Virus record (IMG/VR): IMGVR_UViG_3300038825_001688
Coordinates: 1 to 31,897 of that record
From: a virus
Strand: one strand, 5' to 3'
Length of the DNA stretch: 31,897 nt
The notes under the pieces: generated by a model
Told to the model about the DNA's origin: nothing
Seen by the model: the letters and a program-made list of their open reading frames with translations, nothing else
Database searches by the model: none
Position numbers and translations under genes: made by a program
Part shown: piece by piece, positions 1 to 31,897 of the stretch
Numbering within the stretch: position 1 is the first letter of the stretch
How the letters are laid out: every line of letters starts with the position of its first letter

Positions 1-1682
1 TCCTTCACAAAAATACTATTTACATCACCAAATACACCTTGTTGGGCTAGTTGCATTGTGGTATCGGCAATAGCTTGCTGAGATTGTGGCATCGCAGAAC
101 CCGTTTGGACTTCAATTTCGTATTGAGTAATGGATAAATCATTTAAAAATTGTTGGGGAACAGACATTAAAGGTTTTTGTTCAGGGCTATAAATATCTAT
201 ATTTTCTTGATTTTCACTCATCACAGCTAAGCGTTGTCCAGAAATTCTCATAATTCTAGGCTGCGTATAATAAAGCTGTATTAAGGTTATTCCTTTATTA
301 CTTAAATCCACTAGGAAACTTTTAAAATTGCGCTGAATTTCTCTAATAGAAGACATGGGAGACTCATTAAGATCACGAATCATTTGACCTGAATTTGCAC
401 CGACTGGCCTTTCTCCTGACAACATAACCTCATTAATTCTTGCTAATGAAAGCGCATCACGTTTTAAATTATTGATATGATCACGCATTAATTGAATATC
501 TTGAGCAAGTTTATTCGTCACCAAGACAGGTTGCTGAAAAGTGCCTCGTTTTGAAGCGATAATATCAAAATTCTTAGATAAGTCATTGGGGTTTAGTGAA
601 TCTGGGCTCACAATTAACATAGATCTGTATTTAGCCACTAGTTCATTTAATTTATAGTATGCGTTAGTTAATTTATCCTGCGTAGCACATAAATCTCTTA
701 CATCACCATAACCGACAAGAGTATTAGTAGTTGTAGGAGTAAAAGTAGCGAAGGGAAACCCAAAAGGATAATCTATGGGACGATCTTCTAGTACATAATT
801 GCCAATATATACGATTAACCTACCGTTCGGATATTTGAATAAGTTTTTTCTTTTAACGTCTTGTGTATCACTGTTATCTTGTTTTTCGGGTTGGAAAATA
901 GTGTCGTCTCGTAAGTAGCACTCGTACACAGTATAATTACTTTCAGTACTAGAAGGAAAGTTACCCCTAGATAAATAAGCTTGACCTGAATCTTTGTCAT
1001 TTGAATACCCCTGTAAAATATTAGTTTGCTCTGGCTCTTCAATACTTACTTTTTGCTTTTTATTTAACTTATCTAAAATTTCTAAAACCCGTGGATTACC
1101 TTTGTATTGATCTATTAAATCAAACTTAGATAATGATCTTTGTACAAAAATATAATTAGCATTTTGAATAGTGCTAGCAGCAGGCTCTGGAAAAAAATTC
1201 TCAGGACTTATTCTTGTAACAGAAACGTTACCTAAACCTTCATCTTTAGCTTGATTCCAAGCAACCTTTCCTATTCCAATTCCATAAATTAAACCATCAC
1301 GAACAATTTGTTGATGAATATCAGAAATGTTATTAGCTTTTTTTACATTCTCCCAAACATCGTTAATTATTTCCGCGACAGAATCTAATTCTTTGAGAAA
1401 TTCAAAATTAGCATGAGATAAAGAAGAGACTTTAACATTTGTTGTAATTTGAGCATCTAAAGCAATAGTAGCTTTTGTTTCAATTATCGGTCTTATGCAA
1501 TTGTAATAATTGCGATTATTGCCTCGTCTTGGGTCAGAGCTATAAGAATAGCCAATGTCTGGCGCAACCATTCCGTTATAATATTTTGCATACTTAACAA
1601 AGTTTTTTTGATCCTCCGTATTCATAGCCGGACGACGCAAAGAATTTAGATATTTAACTAGCTTTTCATTTTTTAGGGACAT
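1..1682 (-). CDS. Phage portal protein (3' end beyond window)
   Basis: Portal proteins form the dodecameric ring at one capsid vertex through which DNA is packed and ejected. The minus-strand frame opens at an ATG at 1682 (MSLKNEKLVKYLNSLRRPAM) and stays open to the window edge, giving at least 560 residues without a stop. The N-terminal region with paired tyrosines (YYNGMVAPDIGYSYSS), the NYYNCIRPIIETK segment, a NFFPEPAAS stretch, and the long Gln-rich C-terminal helix region (QQFLND..., AMPQSQQAIAD) are what I would expect of podovirus-type portals. No Shine-Dalgarno is seen; the start is preceded by AATTAAGT. It is transcribed away from scaffold and capsid, which is unusual because portal, scaffold and capsid genes are normally co-directional. 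Family assignment is by sequence impression; the truncation is a window effect, not a mutation. Confidence 0.75.
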   Translation of the reverse strand, partial: MSLKNEKLVKYLNSLRRPAMNTEDQKNFVKYAKYYNGMVAPDIGYSYSSDPRRGNNRNYYNCIRPIIETKATIALDAQITTNVKVSSLSHANFEFLKELDSVAEIINDVWENVKKANNISDIHQQIVRDGLIYGIGIGKVAWNQAKDEGLGNVSVTRISPENFFPEPAASTIQNANYIFVQRSLSKFDLIDQYKGNPRVLEILDKLNKKQKVSIEEPEQTNILQGYSNDKDSGQAYLSRGNFPSSTESNYTVYECYLRDDTIFQPEKQDNSDTQDVKRKNLFKYPNGRLIVYIGNYVLEDRPIDYPFGFPFATFTPTTTNTLVGYGDVRDLCATQDKLTNAYYKLNELVAKYRSMLIVSPDSLNPNDLSKNFDIIASKRGTFQQPVLVTNKLAQDIQLMRDHINNLKRDALSLARINEVMLSGERPVGANSGQMIRDLNESPMSSIREIQRNFKSFLVDLSNKGITLIQLYYTQPRIMRISGQRLAVMSENQENIDIYSPEQKPLMSVPQQFLNDLSITQYEIEVQTGSAMPQSQQAIADTTMQLAQQGVFGDVNSIFVK

Positions 1683-1805
1683 ACTTAATTTTAACCTGTT
1701 TTTTACACTTTGTTTTATGATATATTCCAATTAAATTATAACTTTTGTGCTTAGAGTGTAATCTACTTGCATGATTTTCACTTTGTAAAATTTTACAATT
1801 AAAGT
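1683..1805. promoter_or_regulatory. Divergent control region between portal and head genes, with a perfect 16-bp palindrome
   Basis: This 123-nt gap separates the leftward portal gene from the rightward head genes. A perfect palindrome, TTGTAAAATTTTACAA, lies at 1783-1798, just before the ATG at 1806. It holds a TAAAAT -10-like hexamer on both strands. A TATAAT hexamer on the minus strand lies at 1735-1740, pointing at the portal, but its -35 is weak. Neither flanking gene has a clear Shine-Dalgarno. A divergent late promoter or an operator is plausible; the start sites are not proven. Confidence 0.4.
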
Positions 1806-5201: not shown

Positions 5202-6646
5202 CCTACATTTATAATCCACAACAGCTAGAGTCATCAGAAAACACTTTTATAACTGCGTTAGCTTTTGCGACAATTACAGGGCAATTGACAGCTACTAGGA
5301 ATGATGGTGTAGAACTTACTACTGATTTGGATGGAAGATATGTTACGGAAAATACACGTACGACATCAGCAACTTTCAACACTTCTGATGGCATTTTAAC
5401 TTTAAATCAAACTGATCCAGTAGGCACTGTAACGGTAGACTTAGATGGCCGTTTTCCAACTGAAAATACACATTTGAATACTGCAACTCTAGGTGTAGAC
5501 AATGTGTTATCACTTGGAATGGTCAATCCAACCTCTACAATTACCGTTGATTTATCAGATTTATCTGATTTAAATACTCATTTAGATTCTGCATCACTAA
5601 CAGAATCAAATGTTTTGCAGTTAAATATGGTGAATCCAGAATCTACAATTACAGTTGATTTAGATGGCATGGTAACAGGTGATTTTTTGCCGATTGATTT
5701 TACAAACTCATTTGCTGGGGATCTGAATTATTTAGTTCAGGCAGGCGTTTATTCAGTTTCGACAACAGCGGTTAATACGCCTCCTGAATTACAAGGAAAT
5801 GAGCATTTTGTTTCAGTGTATTCTGATAGAGTCGGAGCAGGTCAACCTACTTCATGTGTTCAAATTTGGCATACTGGAATGAATCAAAGTAACGGTCTAA
5901 ACCCTAATACAAGAATGTGGATGCGAATTTTTTCTTATGGAACCATGCCGATTGTATCTCAATGGCAGGAAATTAATAATGGAGGTTTAAATGGTTATCT
6001 AAGGGGAGAAATGACGGCTACGGGTCGTGATTTTAATGCGCCAAGGTATCGACAGTCTGGGTATTATTTTGTTGGAAATGTTAATTCAGAAACACAAGGT
6101 TGGACCAATGGACCTGATTATTTTCCTAATTCGCAATTTAATGTTTTGAAAACTATTATGACAGGAGTAAGTAGTGTTGATTTATCTTATGGGAATGGTT
6201 ATCAAGAATTATCTACAGCGACCTATGATGCACCAAATAATCACGTTAGAACTTGGAAAAGGGCGTTTGAGGCGAGCTCAACAGTAGAAAATTATTCAAG
6301 TTGGTTTGAAGTTTATCATCAGGGTGTACCAATACAAACACAAGTTTTAGATATTTATAACATGCCTGATACGAGATCAGTAATTGATGTTAAGGGAAAA
6401 AGAGTAATAGATGTTTCAGTTTCTAATTTGTCTTATGGAATTTCAACATTACAAAATGGAGTTGAAGGCCAAGTTATAACTTTTATCAAAACGAGTTACA
6501 ACGGAATGGTAACGATTAATACGACAGGAAATATTAATACACCTAATGGTGGTACTTCACGCTTTGTAATGAGATATCACCGTGGCGGAAGCTTTATTAA
6601 AAAGGGATCAGAATGGTATCCGCTATTTTCCAATTCAACATCATAG
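5198..6646 (+). CDS. Tail fibre-like protein with beta repeats and a pyocin-knob-type domain
   Basis: This 482-aa protein probably contacts the host surface. Residues about 25-155 contain four imperfect beta repeats with the pattern NxxxxLxMVNPxSTITVDLDG, typical of trimeric fibre shafts. Residues about 155-265 (GVYSV ... VQIWHTGMN ... RIFSYGTMPIVSQWQEIN) resemble the pyocin-knob domain. A related second copy follows at about 285-380 (GYYFVGNVN... to SSWFEVYHQG). The C-terminus (GSFIKKGSEWYPLFSN) looks like a fibre tip. The start is fixed by ATGA overlap with the upstream gene. Its position between decoration and neck genes rather than at the end of the tail block is a little unusual. Confidence 0.7.
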   Translation: MTYIYNPQQLESSENTFITALAFATITGQLTATRNDGVELTTDLDGRYVTENTRTTSATFNTSDGILTLNQTDPVGTVTVDLDGRFPTENTHLNTATLGVDNVLSLGMVNPTSTITVDLSDLSDLNTHLDSASLTESNVLQLNMVNPESTITVDLDGMVTGDFLPIDFTNSFAGDLNYLVQAGVYSVSTTAVNTPPELQGNEHFVSVYSDRVGAGQPTSCVQIWHTGMNQSNGLNPNTRMWMRIFSYGTMPIVSQWQEINNGGLNGYLRGEMTATGRDFNAPRYRQSGYYFVGNVNSETQGWTNGPDYFPNSQFNVLKTIMTGVSSVDLSYGNGYQELSTATYDAPNNHVRTWKRAFEASSTVENYSSWFEVYHQGVPIQTQVLDIYNMPDTRSVIDVKGKRVIDVSVSNLSYGISTLQNGVEGQVITFIKTSYNGMVTINTTGNINTPNGGTSRFVMRYHRGGSFIKKGSEWYPLFSNSTS

Positions 6647-14130: not shown

Positions 14131-15080
14131 CAACACCATCAGCAAGCGATTTAAATTTATATGACGGAACACCTTTCGATCAAACTGATTGGGATGGTAA
14201 CTGGAACCAAAATATAACGTGGTTAACTTCTGGTAACTATGACATGACTTTCCAAACTGTGACAGCTAGCTCATTTGTTGGTTTGCCAACAGAAACTTTT
14301 GCATTAACGGCAGGAGAAGATATTTCAGCAGGTAATGTAGTAAGAATATCGGCAGGTCAAGCACTAAAAGCTACTAATGCTAGTGAAGCAGGTATTACCA
14401 GTGTTGTAGGAATAGCCACTCAAACAGTTACCTCAGGATCATCAGTTAACATTGCATATACAAATTATGAAAGTTTTTCTGGATTAACTTTAGGTGCAAT
14501 TTATTATGTTGGTGTTGATGGAGCCATTACATCTACAGCACCTGAAATTCGTACAGTACAAATTGGTACAGCAGTATCAGCATCAAGAATAAATTTAAAT
14601 ATTAAAAGTTTAGTCGATACACATTCTTTAAACTATGTAAGGTATTGGGATAGAAAAGAATTTTCACTAGGCATTAATGCAAAAACAATAGAGTCAACTT
14701 ATACAAATATTTATGTGCAGGAGGAATCAGTTTCAAGACATTGGAATAATAATCTAGGAATACAAAATAACGTAAGTTTATGGTTAACATTTACTGGTAG
14801 TGCGTCAAATCCATCAGTATTGCAAGCAAAAATACAACGGTATTCAGGATCTTGGACTGATGTATTTGAATCAAATACATTTTCAATTTCAAACCCGGGA
14901 ACATCTGAATACAATACAGTAGCATTTTCTTTACATACAGGAAATATAACAAATTGGGATTTATATACAACACCTGCAACTGGTTTAAACAGTGCTACTA
15001 ATGATTGGCGATTGCAATTACTAGGATCAGGTAACACACCTAATTTAAATAGCTTTGCATTTCAATGGGATAAGTCATGA
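14127..15080 (+). CDS. Beta-rich virion/tail protein, 317 aa
   Basis: The N-terminal 45 residues (DLNLYDGTPFDQTDWDGNWNQNITWLTSGNYD) look like a fibre attachment region. Residues about 55-150 (LTAGEDISAGNVVRIS ... GITSVVGIATQTVTSGSSVNIA) match a small beta-barrel that recurs in phage decoration and fibre proteins. The remainder is a beta-sandwich-like domain (FSLGINAKTIESTYTNIYV ... VSLWLTFTGSASNPS) that could bind a carbohydrate or serve in trimerisation. It is coupled by ATGA to the upstream gene. Likely a tail fibre or tip protein; substrate unknown. Confidence 0.5.
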   Translation: MTTPSASDLNLYDGTPFDQTDWDGNWNQNITWLTSGNYDMTFQTVTASSFVGLPTETFALTAGEDISAGNVVRISAGQALKATNASEAGITSVVGIATQTVTSGSSVNIAYTNYESFSGLTLGAIYYVGVDGAITSTAPEIRTVQIGTAVSASRINLNIKSLVDTHSLNYVRYWDRKEFSLGINAKTIESTYTNIYVQEESVSRHWNNNLGIQNNVSLWLTFTGSASNPSVLQAKIQRYSGSWTDVFESNTFSISNPGTSEYNTVAFSLHTGNITNWDLYTTPATGLNSATNDWRLQLLGSGNTPNLNSFAFQWDKS

Positions 15081-16727: not shown

Positions 16728-17007
16728 TTTTATGTTTGTTTATGATGGCTTGTGAAAGCATAATACATCTGGTTGCCGCATGCGTCAAATCCTCTAAATT
16801 ACTTATATCTCTTTTTTTATCAAAGTTATTAATGTGCGCTTTGATATGCTTTAGGTGATGATTAATTGATCTTGTCTCCCAATCATCTTTTTTATATTTT
16901 TCTCTTCCATCAGCAATAACATTTAAAATGCAATTAAAAGCAGGCGCAAAAGTTTCTTTGAACGCTTTAAGCATATAATTTTGTCTTTCTATTATTTTAT
17001 TTTCCAT
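16702..17007 (-). CDS. MazG-like dATP/dGTP diphosphohydrolase family candidate
   Basis: The 101-aa protein shows the spaced pattern DGREKYKKDDW ... INHHLKHIKAHI ... DISNLEDLTHAATRCIMLSQAI. This resembles the small all-helical phage domain formerly called DUF5664, now described as dATP/dGTP diphosphohydrolase N-terminal domain. Those proteins have a MazG-like helical fold and adjust nucleotide pools. Conserved-looking positions are Lys37-Tyr38, Trp43, His50-His51 and His76. An AAGGAGATAT ribosome site precedes the ATG. It sits in the replication operon, which suits the assignment. The exact substrate is not established. Confidence 0.5.
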   Translation of the reverse strand: MENKIIERQNYMLKAFKETFAPAFNCILNVIADGREKYKKDDWETRSINHHLKHIKAHINNFDKKRDISNLEDLTHAATRCIMLSQAIINKHKNDNNKPRS

Positions 17008-17372
17008 TTTTGATATATCTCCTTTATATAATCAATACATTTTTTAGGGTCTTTATCGATTTGATTACTTGTAAAAGCTAGCATTTTCCAGCCGTGAATT
17101 GCCGCTAAGCACCGTTTTTCATAATCGGTATCTGAAGCATGTCTACCCGTAGTCAATTTGCCCGTTTTGGTTTTAATTAATCGTGTACCGCCGTCACATT
17201 CAATAGCAATTTTTTCATCAACAAAAGCAAAGTCAAACCTAAATTTTCTTTTACAAAATTGATGTTCTCTAACTAAGATCTTACTTAATTTTGGCTCTAG
17301 TAATTTTATCCAATACCATAATTTTTCGTCTGAATAATTTACCTTCTTTTCTAGTTTTTTTAGCAAAGACAT
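16992..17372 (-). CDS. PDDEXK-type endonuclease-like protein
   Basis: This 126-aa protein resembles compact Vsr/DUF559-like phage nucleases. The core FRFDFAFVDEKIAIECDGGT gives the catalytic-like D47 and E58-x-D60. It is followed by the family-like stretch TGRHASDTDYEKRCLAAIHGWKMLAFT. Such enzymes cut DNA in repair or recombination, or process phage DNA. The classical lysine of the E-x-K motif is replaced by Asp60, as in related phage sequences where the base lies elsewhere. The ribosome site is GGAGGG eight bases before the ATG. It overlaps the next gene by 16 nt. Confidence 0.65.
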   Translation of the reverse strand: MSLLKKLEKKVNYSDEKLWYWIKLLEPKLSKILVREHQFCKRKFRFDFAFVDEKIAIECDGGTRLIKTKTGKLTTGRHASDTDYEKRCLAAIHGWKMLAFTSNQIDKDPKKCIDYIKEIYQKWKIK

Positions 17373-21813: not shown

Positions 21814-22791
21814 ATGATTAATTTTATTATTCACCAATTCAAAAAACAAAAGAAATATAGTGTACATCAACTTTTAGATATATTTTATGTAAAAGAATAT
21901 CAAGAAAATACAAATATAACGTCACACACAAAAAAACATGCATATAGCATCATCAAAAACCTTAAAATTCTAATTGAATCAAGTGTTAACCTTAATGATT
22001 TAAATTATTCTTTTGTTGAGGATTTAAAGGGTGTGTTACAAGAAAAGTATTCACAAACCTATGCGCGAGGTAATTTTACAATATTTAAACGCTTTTTGAA
22101 TTGGGTTTATCTGTGCGGCTATACTAATCATGAAATAAAATACAACGGCGTGATTTCTCAAAGATCAAAAAAAGATATTCTGACAGTAACACCGCAACAA
22201 ATCGAATACTTTAAGAAAAAAATAAAAGAGGCTTTAAAAATTGATTTAAAAAAAGAACCTAGAAGATTACAAAAATTTGAAAAAAATTCAGTTTTAAAAT
22301 TATATTACTCTATTTTATTCCTTTATGAGACTGGGGTTAGATTACAAGAATTATCAAGAATAAAAAGAACTGATTTTAATGCCAAAAAAAGTGAGCTTTT
22401 TATCAAATCGTTTGCAAAAAACAAAGGGGCATCACGAGTAATTATTCTAAATAAAACGGCTAAGTCCTTAATAGAGTCAATGCCTCAATATGATGATGTT
22501 CATCTTTTTCTTTTTCCGTTTAGAACTACTGTTTTGTTCAATAACTATTTTCAGAATTTTATGAGGTCTGACTATTCTACCAAACAGAAATTTAAACTCA
22601 GTAGTCTACGTAAGGCTTTTATTACAGAATCCTTAAAATCTGGAGTTCCACTTGAAACTGTAAGTAAATATGTCGGACACTCACGATCAACCATAACATC
22701 AGCGTACTATGTTGATGTACAAGAACTAAACTCAACAACCAAAGCACACTGGCAAGCTAAAAAAAGCGTTAAATTATTAGAAATTGAATAA
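21814..22791 (+). CDS. int: Tyrosine recombinase/integrase
   Basis: The 325-aa protein has an N-terminal helical core-binding domain (residues about 15-110) and a catalytic domain. Visible catalytic residues are R176 in ETGVRLQEL, K204 in NKGASRVI, R266 in LSSLRKAF, H289 in VGHS, and a tyrosine at 298 or 299 in SAYY. The usual His of the HxxR motif is Ser263, a substitution tolerated in some family members but worth noting. It would integrate or excise the phage or resolve multimers. The 85 nt after the gene hold no recognisable attachment site or tRNA fragment. Confidence 0.85.
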   Translation: MINFIIHQFKKQKKYSVHQLLDIFYVKEYQENTNITSHTKKHAYSIIKNLKILIESSVNLNDLNYSFVEDLKGVLQEKYSQTYARGNFTIFKRFLNWVYLCGYTNHEIKYNGVISQRSKKDILTVTPQQIEYFKKKIKEALKIDLKKEPRRLQKFEKNSVLKLYYSILFLYETGVRLQELSRIKRTDFNAKKSELFIKSFAKNKGASRVIILNKTAKSLIESMPQYDDVHLFLFPFRTTVLFNNYFQNFMRSDYSTKQKFKLSSLRKAFITESLKSGVPLETVSKYVGHSRSTITSAYYVDVQELNSTTKAHWQAKKSVKLLEIE

Positions 22792-28170: not shown

Positions 28171-28297
28171 ATACGGAAAATCTAACAAGACATTTGGAGA
28201 AAATGTTAAAAAAGAAAAGAAAGCAGGAAAAGGAATGAAGCAAGCTTTAGCTATAGCATATTCTATGAAAGACAAAAGCAAAAAAAAGAAATATTGA
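28160..28297 (+). CDS. Small Lys-rich phage protein, 45 aa
   Basis: GTG at 28160 is preceded by GGAGG with eight-base spacing, a very good site. The product (MPLKYGKSNKTFGENVKKEK, then KAGKGMKQALAIAYSMK and a poly-Lys end) resembles short basic phage proteins of the KxxKQALAIAxS type seen next to late genes of many phages. It overlaps the methyltransferase start by TTGA. Nucleic-acid binding is likely from charge, otherwise unknown. Confidence 0.6.
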   Translation: MPLKYGKSNKTFGENVKKEKKAGKGMKQALAIAYSMKDKSKKKKY

Positions 28298-29085
28298 GGC
28301 ATTTAGATTTATTTAGTGGAATTGGCGGATTTGCTTTAGCTGCACAATGGGCAGGTATTAACACAGTCGCCTTTTGCGAAATAGAACCATACGCTCAAAA
28401 AATATTAAAAAAAAATTTTCCTGATGTTCCTATATATTCAGATATTAACAAACTAAAAAGGAGTGATGTAAATGGATCAATTGACATTATTACAGGGGGA
28501 TTCCCCTGCCAACCGTTTAGTGTCGCAGGAAGAAAAAAAGGAACGGAAGATGATCGCGACCTCTGGCCGCAGATGTTTCGAGTTATACAAGAATTCAAGC
28601 CCACTTGGGTCATTGGTGAAAACGTTGCTAACTTCGTTAATATGGCATTCCAACGCACGAAAACTGACTTGGAAAGTGAAGGGTACGAAGTGCAACCACT
28701 TATTATTCCAGCTTGCGCCGTCAATGCGCCACACAGACGAGATAGAGTGTGGATTCTGGCGCACTCCCGATGCTCATTGCAACAGGGGGTCATCAAGCAA
28801 AGAGCGAATGGCATGGAAGATAAAGAACAAGATGCCAATATCGATCAACGATCAAGTGATGTGGGCTACTCCAAACGCCAGAGACTACAAGGACAACGGG
28901 AAAAATCCATCAGAGTTAAACCGAAATACGATTACATTGGCAACACATGCTGGTGGGAGTTTGAACCCAACGTGGGTAGAGTGGCTTATGGGGTACCCAA
29001 TAGGGTGGACAGACTTAAAGGACTAGGGAACGCTATAGTTCCACAAGTAGCATATCAAATATTAAAAGGTATAATGATGTTATGA
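28294..29085 (+). CDS. DNA (cytosine-5) methyltransferase
   Basis: This 263-aa enzyme should transfer a methyl group from SAM to C5 of cytosine, probably protecting phage DNA from restriction. Motif I is DLFSGIGGF (residues 5-13). Motif IV is GGFPCQPFSVAG with catalytic C72; motif VI is ENV (109-111); motif VIII is HRRDRVWI (147-154). Motifs IX/X are RVDRLKGLGNAIVPQVAYQI near the end. The target-recognition part (about 155-225) is short. TTG is the start because it places the family N-terminus directly after it and overlaps the upstream stop (TTGA). A second gene is encoded inside in another frame. GC content is higher than in neighbours, as expected for dual coding or transfer. Confidence 0.9.
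   Translation: MRHLDLFSGIGGFALAAQWAGINTVAFCEIEPYAQKILKKNFPDVPIYSDINKLKRSDVNGSIDIITGGFPCQPFSVAGRKKGTEDDRDLWPQMFRVIQEFKPTWVIGENVANFVNMAFQRTKTDLESEGYEVQPLIIPACAVNAPHRRDRVWILAHSRCSLQQGVIKQRANGMEDKEQDANIDQRSSDVGYSKRQRLQGQREKSIRVKPKYDYIGNTCWWEFEPNVGRVAYGVPNRVDRLKGLGNAIVPQVAYQILKGIMML
28472..29026 (+). CDS. Overlapping gene inside the cytosine methyltransferase, 184 aa
   Basis: A complete frame (+1 relative to the methyltransferase) runs from ATG 28472 to 29026. AAGGAG lies eight bases upstream of this internal ATG, a ribosome site not needed by the enclosing gene. The protein contains segments I recognise from a family found nested in phage methyltransferase genes: MIATSGRRCFELYKNSSPLG, LLFQLAPSMRHTDEIECGFW, VMWATPNARDYKDNGKN, and the C-terminal LNPTWVEWLMGYPIGWTDLK. 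Function is unknown to me. Conservation of both frames in this family is from memory and should be checked, but the start signal here is direct evidence for translation. Confidence 0.65.
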   Translation: MDQLTLLQGDSPANRLVSQEEKKERKMIATSGRRCFELYKNSSPLGSLVKTLLTSLIWHSNARKLTWKVKGTKCNHLLFQLAPSMRHTDEIECGFWRTPDAHCNRGSSSKERMAWKIKNKMPISINDQVMWATPNARDYKDNGKNPSELNRNTITLATHAGGSLNPTWVEWLMGYPIGWTDLKD

Positions 29086-29219
29086 ATAATTCAGATAATT
29101 TATCTAAAGATAGTGAGTCATTAAAATATATTGCACAATGGGATGAAAAAACATTAGATATTGTGATAAAAAAAATCAAAGACGAAGATTTTTATAAAAA
29201 AAGAAATACTAATGAGTAG
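29082..29219 (+). CDS. Small acidic/basic protein, 45 aa
   Basis: MNNSDNLSKDSESLKYIAQW followed by DEKTLDIVIKKIKDEDFYKK. It is coupled on both sides: ATGA overlap with the methyltransferase stop and an 8-nt overlap with the next gene. Unknown function. Confidence 0.5.
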   Translation: MNNSDNLSKDSESLKYIAQWDEKTLDIVIKKIKDEDFYKKRNTNE

Positions 29220-29493
29220 GTTACAAGCATTAATTAAAAGAGTAGGCGTATCAGGGGTAAATAAACCTAAAAAAACACCTTCCCACTCCTCTAAAAGTCA
29301 CGTAGTAGTAGCTAAAGAGGGAGATAAAGTTAAAACAATTAGGTTTGGGCAACAAGGAGTATCAGGAGCAGGATCTAATCCTATGACTACTAAAGGAAAA
29401 GCTAGGCAAAAGTCATTTAAATCTAGACACGCTAAAAATATAGCTAAGGGAAAAATGAGCGCTGCTTATTGGGCAGATAAAGTAAAATGGTGA
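29212..29493 (+). CDS. Basic phage protein with conserved-looking C-terminus, 93 aa
   Basis: The first half is low-complexity and basic (KKTPSHSSKSHVVVAKEGDK). The second half, KTIRFGQQGVSGAGSNPMTT followed by KSFKSRHAKNIAKGKMSAAY and a WADKVKW end, matches small phage proteins I know only as hypothetical. They typically sit near methyltransferase or terminase genes. A nucleic-acid contact is suggested by charge. No ribosome site of note; coupling to the upstream small gene drives it. Confidence 0.6.
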   Translation: MSRLQALIKRVGVSGVNKPKKTPSHSSKSHVVVAKEGDKVKTIRFGQQGVSGAGSNPMTTKGKARQKSFKSRHAKNIAKGKMSAAYWADKVKW

Positions 29494-29515: not shown

Positions 29516-29947
29516 ATGGAATACAGCCCAAATCTATATAAATATAAAACTTTAGTAGATCGAACAAAAAACTATCAAATAGTTACGCATGATGGCGAAA
29601 AACGTTTTTGGTTTTATTATGTTACTCCCTATTTGCTTAAAAAATATAAAAAATTTTATACTGAATATGCAAAATATGGATATGATGAAAAAATGTTTTA
29701 TAAGCTTTTTGGCGATTCTATATCTATGCTTTTTTTTAAAGAAACTGGCAATGTTAAAGTTATAGAAATTGGTGGTGATTATGTTTGTTTAAAAAGTCAT
29801 ACATATTACGAAGAATTAATGAATATAATTAAATCTACTCATAAAAAATTTATAAAAGATCAAATAAAACTAATTAAAATTAGATGCAAAGAATTACAAA
29901 AGTACAAAGATTTAGCAAATCAAAAACCATGTAAATTATTTGGTTGA
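29516..29947 (+). CDS. Unknown 143-aa protein directly upstream of the TnpB/Cas12-like gene
   Basis: Not recognised. The N-terminal half is Tyr/Phe-rich (NLYKYKTLVDRTKNYQIVTH, then KRFWFYYVTPYLLKKYKKFY); the middle has beta strands (NVKVIEIGGDYVCLKSHTYY); the C-terminus is a basic helix (IKDQIKLIKIRCKELQKYKD). ATAAGGTGATTA precedes the ATG. Its stop overlaps the ribosome site of the nuclease gene eight nt downstream, so the two are translated as a pair. An accessory or inhibitor of the nuclease is one option; an unrelated phage gene is another. It is not a Y1 transposase (no HUH motif) and not Cas1, Cas2 or Cas4. Confidence 0.55.
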   Translation: MEYSPNLYKYKTLVDRTKNYQIVTHDGEKRFWFYYVTPYLLKKYKKFYTEYAKYGYDEKMFYKLFGDSISMLFFKETGNVKVIEIGGDYVCLKSHTYYEELMNIIKSTHKKFIKDQIKLIKIRCKELQKYKDLANQKPCKLFG

Positions 29948-29955
29948 GGTGATAA

Positions 29956-31389
29956 ATGGATAAATTAATGTATGGTGAAAAAAGGGCCTTAATTAAAGAT
30001 CCTTTGTTTTTAGAAATAATGCAAAAAACAGGACAAGGAATTATTTTTGTGCATAATATATTGTTGTATGAAGAAAGAACAAAGTATTATTTCTGGAAAA
30101 GCTTTGGATATTTAAAATCTTTAGCTGCTGTTATTAGCCCTGAATTTACGATTGAAAGCATGAAATTTGATTATTTTTTACATGCAAAACACAATGTAGA
30201 TGAAGAAGTATCTAAACGTATTGATTTATTAAAAAAAGAATTTAGATATTCTTCTTATTTTGATTTTAATTATAAATTAAAACCTTTAAAAGAAGCACAT
30301 CCTTGGCTTAAAAATATTTTATCTGCTCATTTAGACACTGTTACTTGGGATTTAGATGTCGCTATTAAAAATTATAAAAAAACAGGCTTTGGTTTTCCGA
30401 AATATAAAAAAATTGATCCTAAAAATAATTTAGCGCCTAGCATTTCATTGCTATTTAAAAAACAAGCTTCTCAAATTAAAACAATAAAACAATATAATAA
30501 CAGCAAAAAAATAAAACAAATAAAGTTTAAATTTAATCGACATTTAATTGAAGAAAATCACAAAAAAAAATATGACTTTATATATATTAAATTTATTGAT
30601 CATCGCAATTTGGAAGATTTAGGCAGAAAATATAAAGATTCATATCGTATTGTAATGTCTAAAGGTAAAAATCTAAGTATTTCTTTTACTACATTTAAAG
30701 AAAAAAACATAATTGCAAAACCTGTTAAAAAGGTTGTTGCAATTGATAGAAATGCAAATAAAAATAATATTCTGTATTTAGATAATGGCTTTAAATTTAG
30801 ACCGCCAAGCAATAAAAAAGGATTAATTTTAGATCAATTAGAAAAAAAACGAATTAAACTTTCAAAGCAATTAGCTATCAAATACCAGCAAAATAAAAAA
30901 TTACGTTATGATAAAGACAATAAAAAATGGTATTTAACTAAAAATTATTTAAATTTAGTTGAAAAAATTAATAAAGTATACGAAAAACAGCAAAATGTAA
31001 GAAAACATTATCATCATTTTGCAACTCATCATATTGTAAGACGTTATGACAAAATAATTATAGAAGATTTAAATATAAAAAACATGACAAAAAGCAATAA
31101 AGGTAATTTAGAACTGCCGGGTGTACAAGTTAAAGAACAATCACTATTAAATCAAAAAGTTTTAAATGCAGCCTTGGGACAAAATAAAATTTATATAGAT
31201 TATAAAACAAAATACAAAGGTAAAAAATTAATCGAAATTGACCCTAAAAATACCAGTATTACATGTACTGAATGTGGAAATATAAATAAAAAAAATAGAA
31301 AGACAAGAGACATTTTCAAATGTACTAAATGCAGCTATACTAATCATGCTGATTTTGTATCAGCTATAAACATTAAGAATAAATCTTAA
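29956..31389 (+). CDS. TnpB/Cas12-type RuvC nuclease next to a CRISPR array
   Basis: The 477-aa protein belongs to the TnpB/compact Cas12 (type V) group of RNA-guided nucleases. The split RuvC site is complete: D264 in VVAIDRNA, E370 in IIIEDLNIKNM, D466 in NHADFVSAINI. A zinc ribbon has C437/C440 (CTEC) and C456/C459 (CTKC). The segment HLDTVTWDLDVAIKNYKKTG with GFPKYKK (about residues 125-152) matches the wedge/recognition region of TnpB. The N-terminal 110 residues are divergent, and the usual TnpB opening (RLYPTxEQ-like) is not visible. The ribosome site GAGGTGATAA is in local phage style. No tnpA is adjacent; instead a repeat-spacer array follows 132 nt downstream on the same strand. Intact residues argue for active cleavage rather than a dead regulator. 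Exact subtype cannot be set by eye. Confidence 0.85.
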   Translation: MDKLMYGEKRALIKDPLFLEIMQKTGQGIIFVHNILLYEERTKYYFWKSFGYLKSLAAVISPEFTIESMKFDYFLHAKHNVDEEVSKRIDLLKKEFRYSSYFDFNYKLKPLKEAHPWLKNILSAHLDTVTWDLDVAIKNYKKTGFGFPKYKKIDPKNNLAPSISLLFKKQASQIKTIKQYNNSKKIKQIKFKFNRHLIEENHKKKYDFIYIKFIDHRNLEDLGRKYKDSYRIVMSKGKNLSISFTTFKEKNIIAKPVKKVVAIDRNANKNNILYLDNGFKFRPPSNKKGLILDQLEKKRIKLSKQLAIKYQQNKKLRYDKDNKKWYLTKNYLNLVEKINKVYEKQQNVRKHYHHFATHHIVRRYDKIIIEDLNIKNMTKSNKGNLELPGVQVKEQSLLNQKVLNAALGQNKIYIDYKTKYKGKKLIEIDPKNTSITCTECGNINKKNRKTRDIFKCTKCSYTNHADFVSAINIKNKS

Positions 31390-31521
31390 TATGCGGTGAG
31401 GTAACATCGTACACCTTTTTAGGTAAGCCTGCGGTCGCAAGACAATGAACTTCGTTAGAAGTCACAAACAGGAAAACATCTTAAAATAAAAAGTTTTATG
31501 ATAAATTGTAAAAAAAATAGG
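31390..31521 (+). ncRNA. Probable guide-scaffold/tracrRNA region with 17-nt anti-repeat
   Basis: Between the nuclease stop and the first repeat lie small hairpins (ACTTC-GTTA-GAAGT at 31449-31462; TGCG-GT-CGCA at 31430-31439) and the anti-repeat TAAAATAAAAAGTTTTA at 31482-31498. That anti-repeat is complementary to repeat bases 4-20 at 16 of 17 positions (one A-C mismatch; the C/T variant base of the repeat gives G-C or G-U). Both lie on the same strand, so a plus-strand transcript could form tracrRNA-crRNA duplexes. With the first repeat it could also fold into a single hairpin like an omega RNA. The arrangement after a TnpB-like gene matches where omega RNA lies in IS605 elements. Transcript ends are unknown. 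Confidence 0.7.
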
Positions 31522-31874
31522 GTCTAAAACTTTCTATTTTACAGTAAGTTTTACACGATTACAGATTTATGTGAAATTGGTAAAAGTCTAAAACTTTCTA
31601 TTTTACAGTAAGTTTTACACATCTCCATAAACGGCCATTTTCCCTGGTCTAAAATTTTCTATTTTACAGTAAGTTTTACACCCTTTGGCTTTGCAGTGAA
31701 AGCAATTGTAAACGGTCTAAAATTTTCTATTTTACAGTAAGTTTTACACGGTTAGGATCTCGACCCTGTAAATTCATGTCTAAAACTTTCTATTTTACAG
31801 TAAGTTTTACACAGGATCGAAGAGCGAAGATTAACAAAGGTCTAAAATTTTCTATTTTACAGTAAGTTTCACAC
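31522..31874 (+). CRISPR. CRISPR array: six 35-nt repeats, five complete spacers
   Basis: Repeats start GTCTAAAA and end GTTTTACAC, at 31522, 31586, 31647, 31715, 31778 and 31840. Base 9 is C in copies 1, 2 and 5 and T in copies 3, 4 and 6; copy 6 also has T to C at base 31. Spacers are 29, 26, 33, 28 and 27 nt and all different. The repeat is an imperfect palindrome: 14 bases at each end pair with two mismatches around a 7-nt loop. The degenerate last copy marks the trailer end, so the leader is on the nuclease side. Twenty-three further nt (31875-31897) run to the window edge and could be a sixth spacer or flank. No cas1 or cas2 is visible. Confidence 0.93.
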
Positions 31875-31897
31875 AACAGAGGATAGGAAAGAAGAAG

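Follow-up and report, generated by a model that had tools for sequence, protein, structure and literature searches.

We consider it likely that the phage DNA described here carries a self-contained, adaptation-less type V-like cassette that derives from a transposon TnpB, serves as exchangeable cargo of small integrase-bearing phages, and directs dual-RNA-guided cutting. The window, i.e., the whole stretch analyzed (31,897 nucleotides, IMG/VR record IMGVR_UViG_3300038825_001688), ends in a predicted nuclease gene (the effector), a structured noncoding stretch (the scaffold), and a CRISPR array, all on one strand (Table 1). At the level of sequence, the case is made by these parts, the catalytic residues, purifying selection, the conservation of the RNA, the joint change of repeat and anti-repeat, and movement between phages; the cassette looks like a working weapon swapped among phages.

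Table 1. Features of the phage cassette and its surroundings, in window coordinates
Feature	Position	Strand	Basis
Portal gene, C-terminus cut by window start	3..1730	-	phrog_156 on the L008 homologue
Tyrosine integrase	21814..22791	+	Pfam Phage_integrase 5e-15; phrog_1
Phage gene of 93 aa, conserved; borders the variable cargo site on the left	29212..29493	+	
143-aa ORF, no function assigned, between border gene and effector	29516..29947	+	
TnpB/Cas12-like RNA-guided nuclease gene (predicted), 477 aa	29956..31389	+	ORF, profiles, invariant columns, model fold
tracrRNA/omegaRNA-like noncoding stretch (putative), 132 nt	31390..31521	+	conservation, folding
Anti-repeat; base-pairs with the greater part of the 35-nt repeat	31473..31502	+	changes in step with repeat between phages
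CRISPR array of six 35-nt repeats; the first five spacers are complete, the last is truncated at the window end	31522..31897	+	

The effector gene starts with ATG, with GAGGTG upstream. An earlier note, made from the sequence alone, had described its product as carrying a complete RuvC site and a zinc ribbon, and this was confirmed in an alignment of 71 sequences, in which the RuvC acids D264, E370, and D466 and the zinc-ribbon cysteines C437, C440, C456, and C459 all fall in invariant or near-invariant columns. The homologue in a second phage (IMGVR 3300010297_000210; loci L001 and L008) is 90% identical, with 131 differences in 1431 nt, and the dN/dS of 0.17 between the two indicates that the effector, RuvC domain included, is under purifying selection. 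The structure model built from the 71 sequences has a pLDDT of 69, with a core above 90 and a poorly modelled region at residues 153-254 (WED); a first model, built from two sequences, was useless (pLDDT 32). The modelled fold resembles TnpB, Cas12p, Cas12f, and Cas12m about equally, e.g., ISFba1 TnpB (Foldseek E = 1e-14, Z = 17.6) and Cas12p (Z = 17.8).

The array was also as first described, with six repeats and five unique spacers, and it additionally runs off the end of the window. The 35-nt repeats, GTCTAAAAYTTTCTATTTTACAGTAAGTTTYACAC, start at positions 31522, 31586, 31647, 31715, 31778, and 31840; the complete spacers are 29, 26, 33, 28, and 27 nt long, the sixth reaches 23 nt at the window end, and all differ from one another. 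Because the same order of effector, RNA, and array, with nine repeats, occurs in the second phage, an independent contig, the arrangement is not due to chance, and a satellite or chance repeat is ruled out by the unique spacers and this second occurrence. One RuvC effector that retains all catalytic acids and, in both phages, an adjoining repeat-spacer array with unique spacers are in keeping with type V in the broad sense. The earlier report that tnpA, cas1, and cas2 are lacking was borne out by Pfam searches of the ORFs scanned, and IS200/IS605 TnpA queries found no tnpA near the effector gene. No protospacer was found for 14 spacers in the phage collection, searched with whole arrays, or in 1.16 Mb of loci, with shuffled controls, and degenerate-codon scans of viral_contigs with two spacers gave no accepted protospacer. 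A same-peptide match in a GC-rich phage from such a scan was rejected for its many silent mismatches. Spacer 3 of L001 and window positions 14446-14461 share 16 nt, but the overall agreement is only 20/29, a level also reached by shuffled sequences.

Between gene and array lies a third component, which the earlier picture of an otherwise correctly described effector and array had missed. The scaffold forms hairpins at 31392-31411, 31413-31424, and 31428-31472, followed by the anti-repeat, and is identical in the two phages at 125/132 nt (95%). Folded together with the first repeat, it has a z score of -2.9 in the window and -3.9 in L001, beating all but one of 200 shuffles. Two adjacent base pairs between repeat and anti-repeat are double-compensated (U-A to A-U and A-U to C-G) and are paired in 15/15 repeats, while shifting the structure by 1-3 columns lowers the pairing from 98% to 32-47%. 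The anti-repeat of L001 pairs with its own repeats at -19.3 kcal/mol versus -11.8 kcal/mol for those of the other phage, and that of the window does so at -13.5 versus -10.8 kcal/mol. The covariation rests on two phages, and a column-shuffle control, in which 123/500 was obtained, is powerless with two rows. The scaffold opens with a terminator-like hairpin, a point against the proposed cassette, and no Rfam family was found in the window or the locus. We read the scaffold as a putative tracrRNA descended from an omegaRNA.

The second phage, likewise missed in the earlier note, shares no spacer with the window, and every window repeat differs from every L001 repeat at the same positions; therefore, both arrays appear to have been renewed since the two phages parted. 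In L001, the repeat lying farthest from the gene has degenerated most, as would fit growth of the array at the gene side. In L001 the portal gene follows the array directly, with no gene between. Past the last repeat (L008 3431-3483) there are a 9-bp palindrome and a terminator-like hairpin; the CRISPR-less loci L011 and L015 also contain the hairpin close to the portal end.

The earlier attribution to a temperate phage is supported by the tyrosine integrase, which suggests such a lifestyle. Relatives were collected via the major capsid protein. In one of them, G006 (32,060 bases), the two ends of the sequence meet inside the portal gene; on the circular map, the cargo site is bounded on the right by the portal gene, and the start and end of the window abut in the genome, as L001 indicates. 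The 93-aa gene stands at the same left border in L008, L010, L011, L014, and G006, and the 143-aa ORF is missing from L001, its 3' end being found also in L013. The cargo itself varies: G006 (L015 942-3100) holds a DnaB-like helicase gene and a 307-aa ORF and no effector, L013 a DnaB-like gene (116-1327), L010 a 312-aa ORF (5462-6400), and L011 small ORFs. The ORFs of about 310 aa at these sites have no Pfam match, and the DnaB-like gene, the ~310-aa ORF, or both are perhaps a rival counter-defence module. Most backbone genes of L001 differ from those of CRISPR-less G006 at a dS of about 0.2-0.3 (0.62 for one gene) and from those of the window phage at a dS of 0.8 to saturation, whereas the effector (0.33) and border gene of L001 and the window are separated by a dS of only 0.30-0.33. 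From this low divergence of the cassette against a divergent backbone, we infer an exchange between phage lineages at the variable cargo site, a movement that the earlier note did not detect. The site resembles that of phage ICP1, in which a CRISPR system and an alternative nuclease share one locus (PMC11656645).

Other features of these genomes were observed along the way. Overlapping frames at window positions 28294-29085 and 28472-29026 (+) encode two real-looking methyltransferase-type proteins, i.e., dual coding: the first matches C5 methylase phrog_363 (2e-85), and the second, of 184 aa, matches phrog_1008 (3e-31) and is 41% identical to a Lacticaseibacillus phage protein. A 126-aa DUF559 (very-short-patch-repair-like) protein is encoded at 16992-17372 (-) in the early region and is conserved in L015. 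ARAGORN gave no confirmation for a tRNA that visual inspection had suggested in L010. No host was indicated by the portal protein, which had no phage match, or by the terminase, whose matches were at about 24%.

Transcription and processing of the scaffold and crRNAs are predicted, as is cleavage of DNA by the effector. The anti-repeat would pair with each repeat, and the guide would therefore be a dual RNA; for spacer 1, it may be a single uninterrupted, omegaRNA-like molecule. DNA that matches a spacer and lies beside a short motif would be bound by the complex and cut by the intact RuvC site. Since the protospacer searches were empty, the targets can be named only conditionally and may be competing phages, plasmids, or host defence islands. 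The effector is most likely a dual-RNA-guided DNA nuclease used against competitors or host defence. A bolder reading, which we put forward tentatively, is an independent TnpB-to-CRISPR transition on phages, in which the scaffold, anti-repeat, and first repeat continue to make up a single omegaRNA-like hairpin with spacer 1 at its end and the later repeats give split crRNAs; the cassette would be traded between phages, and its repeats and spacers would be renewed together, in one block, through an undescribed acquisition route that does without cas1/cas2.

By its profiles, the effector is of the TnpB kind and matches none of the known Cas12 subtypes. A profile search proposed in the earlier note thus had a divided outcome, i.e., the general NCBIfam profile guided_TnpB (NF040570) was passed (131.6 bits, curated cut-off 100), and all NCBIfam subtype profiles failed by far; the TnpB-proximal, type V-like character assigned there is supported. 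The specific IS200/IS607 TnpB profiles also failed (51.6 and 64.5 bits against cut-offs of 425 and 350), as did c2c8 (V-U2; 64 bits, cut-off 350) and Cas12f2 (24 bits, curated cut-off 450). On the PADLOC Cas12 models the effector scores below transposon TnpB proteins: 114 bits for Cas12u4 and 113 bits for Cas12f, on both of which a tnpA-linked TnpB (L019) reaches 239 and another TnpB (L020) 291-293. On the PADLOC and NCBIfam scores, an assignment to V-U2, V-U4, or Cas12f is rejected. In the trees, the two effectors pair on a long branch (2.1-2.7 changes per column) that has no supported neighbor and lies outside the tnpA-bearing TnpB clades, a placement that is poorly supported. The earlier note had named a position within an active IS605 TnpB clade with arrayless relatives as what would refute its reading, and this is not what was seen: the nearest homologue does have an array.

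Alternatively, the cassette might belong, as a strongly diverged member, to one of the known subtypes, with V-U2 (c2c8) the most plausible, and not form a lineage of its own. Cyanophages already carry V-U2, the V-U2 phages L113-L128 share the layout of effector, ~100-nt leader with anti-repeat, array, and no adaptation genes, and the AU test, in which long branches are involved, does not reject a joint clade (p = 0.39). We nevertheless think this unlikely: in addition to the failed c2c8 profile, the Cas12u2 model gives 90 bits for the effector, compared with 551 and 526 for V-U2 effectors of L113 and phage CL131 and 184-200 for transposon TnpB, and the repeats are unlike V-U2 repeats. The best BLASTP partner is the IS605 TnpB of Deferribacter plasmid pDF308, located beside tnpA (138 bits, 36% identity over 269 aa), ahead of L113 (108 bits over 142 aa) and CL131 (63.5 bits).

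A cleavage-free RNA-guided repressor of the Cas12m or TldR type, which would silence host, prophage, or competitor genes, is quite unlikely. Cas12m is known in such use (PMC11656645), and the protospacer searches gave no target, but none of the three RuvC acids is missing, the zinc ribbon is complete, and purifying selection acts on the domain. That the array is a phage mini-array serving host Cas proteins, with the TnpB-like gene as an unrelated passenger, is improbable: viral mini-arrays exist (PMC11656645), portal and terminase pointed to no host, and cas1/cas2 are absent from the ORFs scanned; however, gene, scaffold, and array move together between two phages, and the anti-repeat lies just downstream of the effector and changes with the repeats. 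An ordinary TnpB insertion with its 3' end tandemly amplified, lacking guide function, would match the protein profile but is hardly credible given the unique spacers of fairly regular length, the lack of a nearby tnpA, and an array kept in two phages with different spacers.

The cassette has several known counterparts. Phage-borne type V-U2 (c2c8) was reported in cyanophage vB_AphaS-CL131, with no tracrRNA (PMC6293099). Like CL131 and L113-L128, the window combines a TnpB-like RuvC effector, an adjoining array, and no adaptation genes in a phage, and it shares with L113-L128 an anti-repeat between gene and array; it differs in the size of the effector (477 aa versus ~630 aa in the L113 type), in its unrelated repeats, and in failing the V-U2 profiles. 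The V-U2 phage family seen in IMG/VR (L113, L116-L120, L123, L124, L126, and L128) has contigs of up to 84 kb, effectors of ~630 aa, and arrays that reach 26 repeats; the anti-repeat between gene and array is bipartite. With the IS200/IS605 TnpB and its omegaRNA, the cassette shares the RuvC-zinc-ribbon core and a structured RNA directly after the gene, whereas it has no nearby tnpA, a multispacer array, a separate anti-repeat and repeat, and a long branch. TranC (LaTranC) and Cas12f are likewise compact, TnpB-related effectors of the same fold, but the LaTranC sequence match is insignificant (E = 0.45) and the Cas12f2 score is far below its cut-off. From landfill viromes, viral TnpB proteins of 401 and 433 aa located next to CRISPR arrays have been described, as have unassigned type V clades (PMC12607003); compared by that description, these TnpB proteins share the TnpB-like effector adjoining an array in a viral contig, and the part of the source considered here describes neither RNA covariation nor cassette exchange. 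Phage-borne V-U2 has been published before, as has viral TnpB next to an array; new are the effector lineage, the scaffold that changes together with the repeats, and the evidence that phages exchanged the cassette, which we regard as a new, probably independent lineage of a kind already known.

CRISPR systems are rare in phages below 200 kb according to a review (PMC11656645), and yet this cassette sits in a genome of ~32 kb. The range between transposon TnpB and CRISPR effectors gains a lineage carried by phages, and the effector of the cassette is also a small nuclease candidate. The two co-changing repeat/anti-repeat alleles offer a ready test of the passage from omegaRNA to a split guide and also bear on how a phage array may gain spacers without adaptation genes.
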